The notes beneath the pieces were generated by a model that made no database searches, was not told where the DNA came from, and saw nothing but the letters and a program-made list of their open reading frames with translations. Positions 28,086 to 30,372 of a stretch of 42,551 nucleotides of DNA are shown piece by piece. Numbering within the stretch: the first letter of the stretch is position 1; each line of letters begins with the position of its first letter. The translations under genes and the position numbers were made by a program. This DNA is from Tychonema sp. LEGE 06208 (GTDB lineage Bacteria; Cyanobacteriota; Cyanobacteriia; Cyanobacteriales; Microcoleaceae). The stretch covers positions 1 through 42,551 of the forward strand of contig NZ_JADEWT010000051.1 in assembly GCF_015207505.1 (NCBI RefSeq). The letters are read 5' to 3'.

Positions 28086-28138
28086 GCGATCGCACTTCGG
28101 GAAGAAAAGGGCGTACTTGGGAAGAAACGGGCGATCGC
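28086..28138. repeat. HIP1-based repeat, unit 2 of 3
   Basis: gcgatcgcacttcgggaaga, then aaagggcgtacttgggaaga, then aacgggcgatcgc: two or three half-units of the same repeat as at 27370 and 28962. It lies between the broken toxin and the next antitoxin-like gene. Confidence 0.75.
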
Positions 28139-28199
28139 ATTTTCCTAGAGCCTAAATTGCTATAATAACAATCAGCCCAAAAATCTCAACATAAAGCCT

Positions 28200-28430
28200 A
28201 TGTCTACTTATAGCGAGGTACTAAGTCAGGCTCAAAGTCTCACTCTTGAAGAGCAACAGCAACTTTTAGAATTTTTGTCAGCATTGATTCGTCAGCGGGA
28301 AACAACCGAGACTCAGGATAGCAGTCAAAGATTGCCCAGGAAAAATTTAAAGAGATGGCGCGGTTTTTTACCGAAGCGTGTGGATGCTTTGGAATTCCAG
28401 TTGCAGCTAAGAGAAGAATGGGATGAGTAA
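28200..28430 (+). CDS. Antitoxin-like small protein, apparently orphan
   Basis: This 76-residue protein opens STYSEVLSQAQSLTLEEQQQ, a helical, Leu/Glu/Gln-rich pattern common in short cyanobacterial antitoxins. A basic middle (LPRKNLKRWRGFLPKR) and an acidic tail (LQLREEWDE) follow. The tail would fit a toxin-binding segment. No toxin gene follows: only 68 bases separate it from the next antitoxin-like gene, and they contain no frame of useful length. It may have lost its partner or act on a toxin elsewhere. Family assignment is by general resemblance, so the function is uncertain. Confidence 0.65.
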   Translation: MSTYSEVLSQAQSLTLEEQQQLLEFLSALIRQRETTETQDSSQRLPRKNLKRWRGFLPKRVDALEFQLQLREEWDE

Positions 28431-28961: not shown

Positions 28962-29052
28962 TGCGATCGGCGTAGCTATCCCGTGGGCGATCGCACTTTG
29001 GGAAGATAAGGGCGATCGCGCTTGGGGAAGAAACGGGCGATCGCTTTCGATT
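28962..29052. repeat. HIP1-based repeat, unit 3 of 3
   Basis: Four HIP1 or near-HIP1 octamers (from gcgatcgg to gcgatcgc) are joined by gggaagata(a)ggg / ggggaagaaacggg spacers. It is the same repeat as at 27370 and 28086, and closes the toxin-antitoxin stretch. 29053-29161 shows nothing I can name. Confidence 0.75.
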
Positions 29053-29161
29053 TCACCTTCATCCAGAAATATTAAGGGGTCTTGAGCCTGACCGATGGGA
29101 TACCATAGTTCACTAGCAGGTAGTCTCTATCCACGGCTTCATAATTCCGTAAAATTACTTA

Positions 29162-29190
29162 TTGACAATTAGGTAACTTCAGTGTTACCT
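29162..29190 (+). promoter_or_regulatory. Candidate promoter with palindromic operator for the small-protein cassette
   Basis: A TTGACA at 29162-29167 is followed by the perfect inverted repeat AGGTAAC-ttcagt-GTTACCT (29171-29190). It starts three bases after the -35-like box and would cover the spacer. No good -10 box is obvious at 17 bases. The site lies 26 bases upstream of the first start codon, so a repressor bound there could control the three genes that follow. No regulator gene is adjacent. Confidence 0.4.
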
Positions 29191-29215
29191 TAGTAATTAA
29201 AATTAAACCATTAAT

Positions 29216-29332
29216 ATGGGTAACTTTGTAGCAATATTTATTGGGGCTTTTATAACCCTAGCAGCCACTTGGCTAGCTGCTTTTCTTTGGGGAGCAATTA
29301 CTGGGTTTTCTCTAGGTTTTTGGGGGATATGA
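29216..29332 (+). CDS. 38-residue single-span membrane peptide, first gene of a cassette
   Basis: The translation is MGNFVAIFIGAFITLAATWL followed by AAFLWGAITGFSLGFWGI. It is almost wholly hydrophobic, one or two spans long with Gly and small residues, and has no charged residue at all. The stop codon overlaps the ATG of the next gene by four bases (atga), which strongly suggests coupled translation and that this tiny frame is real. I do not recognise it. It could be a membrane anchor, a small toxin-like peptide or a subunit for the two proteins encoded downstream. No ribosome site is evident before its ATG. Confidence 0.55.
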   Translation: MGNFVAIFIGAFITLAATWLAAFLWGAITGFSLGFWGI

Positions 29333-29673
29333 GCAAAAAACTATCTTATGTTGGAGTAGCTATTGTATGGATTGCTTTATTGTGGTTGCTTCCGCTTGGT
29401 CAAGCCCAAGCTGAGCCTAGCATAGTAAGGAAAACAACTGAATCAATAAGAAGTGAAACTAGGTTCCAAGAAACTTTAGGGCCCCGCCAAAGTGAAAAAT
29501 TATCTACGGGAGTAGACAAAAAAAGTAATGATAAATATCCCAAACTAGAATATTATGATACTCATCTTGAATCTTACGATTCTAATATAGTGAAAGATGG
29601 TTATGTTCGAGGTGGAAGATTCGGTTATAAAATAGGAAAAACCTTGAAAGAACGAACAATAGAAAAAAAGTAG
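29329..29673 (+). CDS. Small exported protein of unknown function
   Basis: This 114-residue protein has a clear signal peptide: MSKKLSYVGVAIVWIALLWL, then LPLGQAQA, with likely cleavage after AQA. The mature part of about 86 residues is polar and basic, with ETLGPRQSEKLSTGVDKK, DTHLESYDSNIVKDGYVRGG and a C-terminal RFGYKIGKTLKERTIEKK. I chose the ATG at 29329 because it overlaps the preceding stop (atga) and places the signal peptide at the N-terminus. The frame is open further upstream from a TTG. No family is recognised. The adjacent genes both encode membrane proteins, so the three may form an envelope-located complex. Confidence 0.65.
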   Translation: MSKKLSYVGVAIVWIALLWLLPLGQAQAEPSIVRKTTESIRSETRFQETLGPRQSEKLSTGVDKKSNDKYPKLEYYDTHLESYDSNIVKDGYVRGGRFGYKIGKTLKERTIEKK

Positions 29674-29682
29674 TGTAGTTTT

Positions 29683-30057
29683 ATGATATTGACATTCACC
29701 CAAGCTGATATTGTTAACATATTTCTATTCTTTTTAGCTTCAATAGGATCTTCTATTTATGTTATCAAAAATCCCAAGGTTAATTTTCTTGATTTTAACA
29801 AAGAGCCAAATCTTTTAGATAATTCAGTGAATCAAGAAGAAAACTCTGACCAAGAAAACAGCAGTTCAGAAATTTTAGAAGTTGCAGAAAAGCAACATAT
29901 TAATACTACTAACCAGTCAGATCAAGAAATATCAAAGATATCACTAGAGACAATTCTTAAAAAGGCATTACCAGTATTTTTCTCTTTCGTGGTAATATAT
30001 CTCTTGTATAAATTTTTTTCCGCCTATCCTCTAACTGATTTTTTATTCTCTCTCTAA
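29683..30057 (+). CDS. Small two-span membrane protein with an acidic loop, unknown function
   Basis: This is a 124-residue protein. An N-terminal hydrophobic span (ADIVNIFLFFLASIGSSIYV) is followed by a polar loop of about 60 residues rich in Asn, Glu, Gln and Ser, with NQEENSDQENSSSEILEV. A C-terminal span reads ALPVFFSFVVIYLLYKFF. The gene starts nine bases after the stop of the exported-protein gene, so it is the third member of the cassette. Base composition is AT-rich compared with the housekeeping genes in the window, as is usual for accessory DNA. No family is recognised. Confidence 0.65.
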   Translation: MILTFTQADIVNIFLFFLASIGSSIYVIKNPKVNFLDFNKEPNLLDNSVNQEENSDQENSSSEILEVAEKQHINTTNQSDQEISKISLETILKKALPVFFSFVVIYLLYKFFSAYPLTDFLFSL

Positions 30058-30162
30058 ACTCTCTGATTGCCGAGTTCACTAGCTCAACTCCCTGGTCAGC
30101 TTAATAATAGGGTTGAAGTTGAGGGTGAGGGTAGTCATAGCAATATTTTATCCTTACTTCAA

Positions 30163-30372
30163 CTACGAAAACATCAATCTACCTTTCGGTTGAGGGACAA
30201 TTCGCCCTAATTCCTGAACAGTCTCAATCCACTCCTGCATAATCACCTCTACATTTTGCAGTGCTGCTTGATAAGTTTCACCATCAGCAGCACATCCGGG
30301 CAATTCAGGCACTTCTGCAATAAATGCCTGGTCTTCCTCTACAATTGTTAATTTGGATAAGGGATAATTATT
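30163..30372 (-). pseudogene. hicB-like antitoxin remnant without a start codon
   Basis: The minus strand is open for about 69 codons and reads NNYPLSKLTIVEEDQAFIAE, VPELPGCAADGETYQAALQN, VEVIMQEWIETVQELGR, then IVPQPKGRLMFS. This is the HicB core fold (EEDQAFIAEVPELPGC, ADGETY, EWIETxxELGRxxPxPKGR), covering nearly the whole usual length. The frame is closed upstream by a stop at 30373-30375, and no ATG, GTG or TTG lies before the conserved part. The natural start has therefore been lost or the gene uses a rare start codon. No hicA toxin is seen nearby. Confidence 0.8.

Follow-up and report, generated by a model that had tools for sequence, protein, structure and literature searches.

Do three small hypothetical genes that lie one behind the other on a cyanobacterial contig form a unit, and what could such a unit do? 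The question is raised by positions 29216-30057 of a stretch of 42,551 nucleotides, here called the window (C179, a contig of genome G000, whose gene content and one named relative point to a cyanobacterium). A preliminary description made from the letters of the window reported a cassette of three tightly coupled, unrecognised genes, encoding a hydrophobic peptide, a secreted protein and a membrane protein. We refer to them as P1, P2 and P3. Comparison with other genomes confirms that the three frames are a real recurring unit.

P1 (29216-29332, + strand) is the gene of a 38-aa membrane microprotein with a single predicted span; P2 (29329-29673, +) encodes a 114-aa protein that is probably exported; P3 (29683-30057, +) encodes a two-span membrane protein of 124 aa with an acidic, probably disordered linker. 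The frames lie at exactly the coordinates first reported, and the tight coupling is present in the window: P1 and P2 overlap by 4 bases, and P2 and P3 are separated by 9 bases. The 4-base overlap did not hold as a family feature, being confined to the window genome and its closest counterpart, G016 (the Microcoleus pair below); elsewhere the gap between P1 and P2 is 15-25 bases (five measured). The spacing of P2 and P3 ranges from −8 to 25 bases across seven copies, and over all 14 junctions measured the extremes are an overlap of 8 bases and a gap of 25.

Within the genus, a search at the DNA level yielded one close counterpart with 78 and 92% identity in two pieces. It belongs to G016, identified as Microcoleus sp. 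LEGE 07076 by a contig scan that returned this one named relative, and has all three genes in unchanged order. Single-protein searches were matched in 2 of 243 genomes of the order with P2 and in 2 of 61 genomes of the family with P3. The P2 query led to G106, a member of another family; there the match is preceded by a hydrophobic frame of 37 aa and followed by a two-span frame. A search of the class with a three-row P2 profile added G115. Four-row profiles of P1 and P2 were then run separately, each against 388 genomes of the order. The P2 profile found eight credible genomes: the four carriers already included in it and four new ones (G710, G677, G108 and G259). Together they span five families (f1, f9, f21, f24 and f33). 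The P1 profile matched the same eight, with E-values no higher than 2.1e-5 in seven of them and of 0.133 in G259.

P1 is located directly upstream of P2 in all eight genomes, in G108 on two contig ends overlapping by 124 bases, so that the small frame ahead of P2 reported for the window is common to every copy. P3 is next after P2 in seven of the eight. A P3 profile matched 4 of 65 genomes, all of them cassette carriers; no P3 without P1 and P2 was seen, and the carriers searched have P3 at one place per genome. The preliminary description had proposed a profile search for co-occurrence in the same order as a check, and none of the genomes searched was seen to carry the genes apart, with the exception of G259, where no P3 was detected. 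Leave-one-out profiles recovered 7 of 8 P1, 8 of 8 P2 and 7 of 7 P3 sequences. When the Microcoleus pair was left out of the profiles (E-values computed with the database size set to 400,000 sequences), the window P2 scored E 3.6e-8 and the window P1 E 4.8e-6 against the six remaining copies, each the best of 1281 window frames; the respective scores of the G016 proteins were 21.4 and 9.8 bits.

Weaker matches were dropped. The four-row P2 profile matched 68 of 388 genomes at E ≤0.5, of which the eight credible ones scored 3.8e-6 or better and the other 60 at least 0.006. Two other P2 profile searches behaved similarly: with the three-row profile 13 of 388 genomes were matched at E ≤0.1 (G000 and G115 credible, the other 11 at 0.018-0.089), and with another profile 14 of 388 at E ≤0.05, of which two were credible and 12 had values of 0.006 or above. 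On inspection, the open reading frames (ORFs) of three weak P2 loci appear unrelated. All three profiles, applied to the loci retrieved, which included part of the weak matches, revealed no further cassette. The P1 profile matched 91 of 388 genomes at E ≤0.5; eight scored 2e-4 or better, namely seven carriers and G087. The G087 match (E 2.0e-4) was rejected, being located inside an 829-aa frame, and the weak others were dropped as well, except for G259 at 0.133.

Selection was assessed by the Nei-Gojobori method on three copies from family f33. The ratio dN/dS for the whole gene is 0.35-0.51 in P2 and 0.45-0.56 in P3, which is purifying. The last 40 codons of P2 are constrained more strongly (0.23 and 0.14 in two pairs, the third being saturated), and the first 40 codons of P3 (0.16-0.19) are its most constrained part; the middle of P2 (0.84-1.04) and the rest of P3 (0.63-0.87) are loose. 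Since the same order recurs in other genera and dN is below dS for P2 and P3 among these copies, the frames are not mere products of chance.

What kind of proteins are these? P2 is a free-standing protein of 112-163 aa in all eight copies. In the window it begins with two lysines and a hydrophobic stretch (residues 5-23) followed by QAQA; residues 1-28 (29329-29412, + strand), read by eye, are probably a Sec signal peptide. The clear signal peptide of the preliminary description is thus retained as a signal-like segment, and export itself appears probable from this sequence. The alanine at the presumed cleavage site is invariant in all eight P2s, as are three glycines in the tail, and no other residue is. 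The glycines form a GxxxGxxxG motif, extended by a fourth glycine in six of the eight; in the window this glycine zipper is G91-x3-G95-x3-G99-x3-G103 (29599-29637, +), seen in the homologue alignment and in a low-confidence AF2 helix. Two cysteines follow the zipper in five of eight copies. The zipper segment is mildly basic (+1 to +6). The basic character of the mature protein, reported for the window, is not a defining trait, given net charges from −4 to +8 over the eight copies. In G108 the tail of P2 (L114:167-658, + strand) is lengthened by repeats based on WT-x-K-x-V, which extend the basic region.

P3 measures 115-156 aa across copies. In the window two hydrophobic stretches (residues 1-19 and 90-108) flank an acidic stretch, and the first transmembrane helix is placed at 29701-29769 (+ strand; AF2 helix 7-29) and the second at 29944-30024 (+; hydropathy and AF2 helix 88-114). 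Hydropathy and the low-confidence AF2 model agree in this respect with the two-span protein with an acidic loop proposed before. Among the seven P3s hydropathy gives two spans in five; the G016 protein has its second span alone above the threshold, and in G106 the second is called twice, overlapping. Common to the P3s is an N-terminal helix that includes shared Asn and Ser residues. In membrane proteins positively charged stretches tend to remain inside, and in the alignment an R/K-rich stretch follows the first helix and precedes the linker in the P3s outside the Microcoleus pair; hence the acidic linker is probably cytoplasmic. The P3 of G016 (L031:1540-2007, − strand) contains 27 extra in-frame codons, apparently the acidic linker duplicated within the protein.

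P1 is 33-39 aa long with a single strongly hydrophobic span, and the alignment reveals a core W-h-A-x-x-h-h-G common to most copies. The absence of charge emphasised in the preliminary description is true of the window P1, which has no K, R, D or E, and fails as a defining trait: the other seven P1s have 1-4 charged residues each. A GxxxGxxxG motif in the window P1 (residues 26-34; 29291-29317, + strand) was likewise dropped as a family feature, being found in three of eight copies. A peptide of this length with one strongly hydrophobic span could be a type I-like toxin or a holin-like peptide, with P2 and P3 as its partners. We consider this highly improbable, as the window P1 shows no PHROGs or Pfam similarity above noise and the next frame bears a signal peptide-like segment in 8 of 8 loci.

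Our preferred interpretation, held tentatively, is an accessory envelope assembly in which the zipper helix of an exported P2 packs with P1 and P3. One operon-like accessory module would encode a three-part assembly, with P1 as its single-span membrane microprotein. P2 would be exported by its Sec-type signal, and its C-terminal glycine-zipper helix would be the working part, packing against membrane helices. P3 would span the membrane twice and keep its acidic disordered linker in the cytoplasm, its first helix providing the conserved contact surface. The task of such an assembly, conditional and dispensable, may be to monitor or modify the envelope, be it plasma or thylakoid membrane, which would fit a role in stress or in conflict. 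Of the envelope-located defence, immunity or stress module suggested earlier, the ordered three-gene layout with predicted membrane and exported products is borne out, and a function in defence, immunity or stress is a putative one.

Several observations weigh against this interpretation. The AF2 models were built on two-sequence alignments and are of low confidence: mean pLDDT is 56 for P2 with its C-terminal helix 86-112, and 66 for P3, where ten-residue blocks of the linker score 42-63. The window P3 scores 5.8 bits against P3s outside the Microcoleus pair, which is not significant (E 1.2), yet none of the 1281 window frames scores higher; the P3 of G016 reaches 14.4 bits. Because the window score is not significant, the P3s of this pair are linked to the distant ones mainly by position, length and layout. 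The P1 of G016 was missed by the leave-one-out profile (9.4 bits). In G259, an 82% complete genome, no P3 was found after P2 or elsewhere, and P3 may be dispensable; a transposase-like frame, which we take to be IS110-like, lies beyond P2 there. In f33 the dN/dS of P1 is 0.45-0.70, with no value significantly below 1, which is weak constraint. Between G000 and G016 purifying selection is not visible: the ratio is 1.09 for P2 and 0.81 for P3 (neither significant) and 2.5 for P1 (Fisher p 0.049).

Purifying selection, by which the preliminary description had proposed to judge the frames, is accordingly found in P2 and P3 among the three f33 copies and not between the window and G016. The weak constraint on P1 and the result for this pair would suit another view, that the locus is no functional unit and that chance small frames have been kept by its shared descent. 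This is hardly credible, given that the order is kept in differing surroundings in five families and that dN is below dS in P2 and P3 of f33.

The distribution of the cassette is that of an accessory element. In the genus it is found in 2 of 29 genomes (G000 and G016), whereas the 3' region of bchH, the neighbouring gene, was matched in 27 of 29; of 16 genomes in G677's genus, one carries the cassette. The same-genus genome G014 lacks an approximate segment corresponding to 29045-30154 of the window, judging by comparison at the probably corresponding place; the left edge of this segment depends on a repeat found at many other places. In G014 the end of bchH is followed by an intact HicA/HicB-like pair (L151:2264-2735), about 10 bases after hicB by a stretch similar to 28985-29044 of the window, and then by a further match to 28129-28319. 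As the repeat at the junction has many copies elsewhere and the genes beyond it differ in part from those of the window, the G014 locus is only a probable cassette-free allele. The repeat itself (28985-29044) is GCGATCGC-rich, has many similar copies across genomes of the genus and adjoins the cassette-free junction; it is presumably HIP1-like. At the other end, 30095-30152 of the window preserves the remains of a gene's 5' end; complete copies of this gene elsewhere in the genus start with MTTLTLNLNPIIKLTD (e.g. L037:8003-8578), and we assume it to be Uma2/DUF820-like. The proximity of bchH raised the idea of a tie to chlorophyll synthesis, which was discarded: bchH is a neighbour in the two same-genus copies and is absent from the listed flanks of G106, G115, G710, G677 and G108.

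The surroundings of the cassette vary between lineages. The hicB remnant reported beside it in the window is there (30163-30312, − strand) as a truncated 49-aa frame without the N-terminus, with a match to HicB_lk_antitox at E 3.2e-5, below the Pfam cut-off, and with no HicA partner seen beside it. An 84-aa frame upstream of the cassette is ParE-like (E 6e-5, just below the cut-off). Toxin-antitoxin-type genes above the Pfam cut-off are located near the cassettes of G016 (BrnA) and G115 (HicA, ParE), and weaker or tentative assignments (ParE-like, HicB, UPF0175, HicA-like, DUF4926) near those of the window, G710, G677 and G259. Among the ORFs looked at, part of which were run against Pfam, none was recognised near G106 and G108. 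The toxin-antitoxin setting proposed from the window is therefore frequent as a raw count and not constant. Type II units of this kind (HicAB, ParDE, BrnTA), which flank several copies, resemble the cassette as small linked genes in accessory regions; P1-P3 of the window match none of them and look like membrane or exported proteins.

Such surroundings bring to mind a toxin/immunity system, in which P2, perhaps with P1, would be an exported membrane-perturbing zipper effector acting on neighbouring cells and P3 the immunity protein. This appears possible and, on balance, rather unlikely. The gene order, effector followed by a two-span membrane protein, is what one would expect, as are the zipper in all eight P2s and the patchy accessory distribution with frequent toxin-antitoxin neighbours. 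P1 and the P2 tail also diverge fastest between G000 and G016: dN/dS of the tail is 2.3 (p 0.21), and P1 and tail pooled post hoc give 1.99 (p 0.039). Resting on one pair and on several segments without correction, this is a hint at diversification at most. Against the toxin/immunity reading, the P2 tail and the first helix of P3 are conserved rather than polymorphic in f33, and G259 keeps P1 and P2 with no P3 detected (both mildly adverse); carriers have a single P3 place, and no P3 without P1-P2 occurs in 65 genomes.

Precedents that work alike are Cdz and the ionophores of contact-dependent inhibition (CDI). The likenesses to these, and to glzT below, were drawn from published descriptions rather than from sequence comparison. 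Cdz of Caulobacter (CdzC/CdzD/CdzI) combines small secreted glycine-zipper proteins with a small inner-membrane partner (PMC5380434). P2 has a GxxxGxxxG motif and a signal-like N-terminus, its secretion being putative; the signal, read by eye, is Sec-like, and P3 differs from the three-span immunity protein of Cdz in having two spans in five of seven copies. A counterpart of the type I exporter of Cdz was not noticed in the flanking ORF lists (to contig ends or about 4.5 kb), and no dedicated exporter was recognised among the part of these frames run against Pfam, which also speaks against a toxin. An ABC permease-like frame, recognised by eye, is situated about 3.5 kb from the G106 cassette. 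The CDI ionophores and their CdiI proteins resemble the cassette in that one group of effectors has a putative glycine-zipper helix, in a two-helix membrane immunity protein and in diversifying pairs; the effectors are the C-termini of CdiA and are predicted to be five-helix bundles, and CdiI has 72-100 aa with cytoplasmic termini (PMC11630599). In contrast, P2 is free-standing in all eight copies rather than the end of a large CdiA, and P3, at 115-156 aa, has a long acidic linker that is probably cytoplasmic.

Do the three proteins change together? Distances between segments, correlated over 21 pairs from seven genomes, give 0.77-0.80 for P1, the P2 tail and the P3 N-terminus. The P3 N-terminus correlates equally with the P2 signal and middle (0.83 and 0.80), and therefore no specific co-evolution is claimed. 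A bolder proposal would make the cassettes a new cyanobacterial family of Sec-exported glycine-zipper effectors, each encoded with a single-span helper and a two-span membrane partner. P1, the tail of P2 and the P3 first helix would then co-evolve as a single membrane interface, and the whole would be a self-contained envelope conflict system that lacks a dedicated exporter; we regard this proposal as unlikely in its full form.

The region upstream of P1 bears on a different explanation. The preliminary description saw a palindromic promoter site there, and its letters are present: a TTGACA box at 29162-29167 and a perfect 7-bp inverted repeat with a 6-bp gap (29171-29177/29184-29190). As an operator belonging to the system it was rejected, since at least one such repeat arises in 8.9% of 2000 shuffles of 29045-29215, the promoter scanner listed no + strand promoter using the TTGACA box, and the repeat is missing in the nearest relative, G016. 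It is not conserved and probably does not belong to the system. A small helix-turn-helix (HTH) gene is divergent to P1 in G710 and G677 (L112:5651-6169, − strand, and L113:10256-10765, + strand); it is Sigma70_r4-like, above the Pfam cut-off in G710 only. The HTH gene of G115 is truncated and lies further from P1, and a conserved TTTTTCCGC-rich repeat element is located upstream of P1 in G710, G677 and G115. Near the G016 cassette, about 2 kb beyond P1, an NB-ARC/NACHT-type ATPase (L037:8648-10024) has an N-terminus resembling the HTH gene by eye.

The divergent gene and the repeat element would be in line with a module that regulates membrane physiology conditionally or under stress, governed by the HTH gene and devoid of a toxic component. 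A cyanobacterial precedent of another build exists: glzT of euryhaline estuarine Synechococcus encodes a two-span glycine-zipper protein that is 9-fold up at low salinity and is proposed to be an osmotic channel; it is likewise accessory, with glycine-zipper motifs and a proposed membrane role (PMC7771541). There, a single glycine zipper 2TM domain-containing protein carries the zippers itself, whereas here the constant zipper belongs to the exported P2. The three f33 loci moreover share ancestry and one genomic place, the HTH match in G677 is below the Pfam cut-off, and no HTH gene was seen directly beside P1 in the window, G016, G106 or G108. We therefore think a purely regulatory or stress module of this kind quite unlikely.

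Are the proteins known under another name? P1-P3 of the window gave no match above cut-off in NCBIfam or Pfam, none below E 0.04 in PHROGs and none to the anti-phage defence families of PADLOC (library of 2023), a run made with the window proteins alone. NCBIfam likewise contained no family for any of the eight P2s, five further P3s and two further P1s, and Pfam none for five further P2s, four further P3s and one further P1. The best match below a cut-off was that of the G115 P1 to HpnL (E 5.5e-4; 19.3 bits against a cut-off of 195.65). PDB profile searches gave E 0.33 at best for P2, 0.52 for P3 and nothing for P1. Carriage by a plasmid or phage was considered and dropped. Plasmids searched by tblastn with P2 of the window, G106 and G710 and P3 of G710 contained no relative (one partial match at E 0.3 was not counted); no relative of the G710 P2 was found in phages, and none of the window P2 or the three-row P2 alignment in viral contigs, scanned for exact patterns with limited reach. 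The same searches of phages and viral contigs, made with P2, lent no support to a phage lysis cassette. In the literature no description of the cassette was recognised among the matches listed, as judged by titles and abstract openings.

As an ordered three-gene cassette, the locus is thus undescribed in every library searched, as the preliminary description had supposed, and the P1-P3 families are new to these libraries; small accessory envelope operons are already known, and no new principle is evident yet. Three hypothetical small genes, one so short that many annotation pipelines would miss it, become a defined module with a conserved motif and a probable cassette-free allele for comparison. 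If it serves in conflict, the module would be a compact cyanobacterial envelope system for which the libraries searched contain no relative; if it is an assembly for stress, it would offer a way to approach the accessory membrane microproteins of cyanobacteria.
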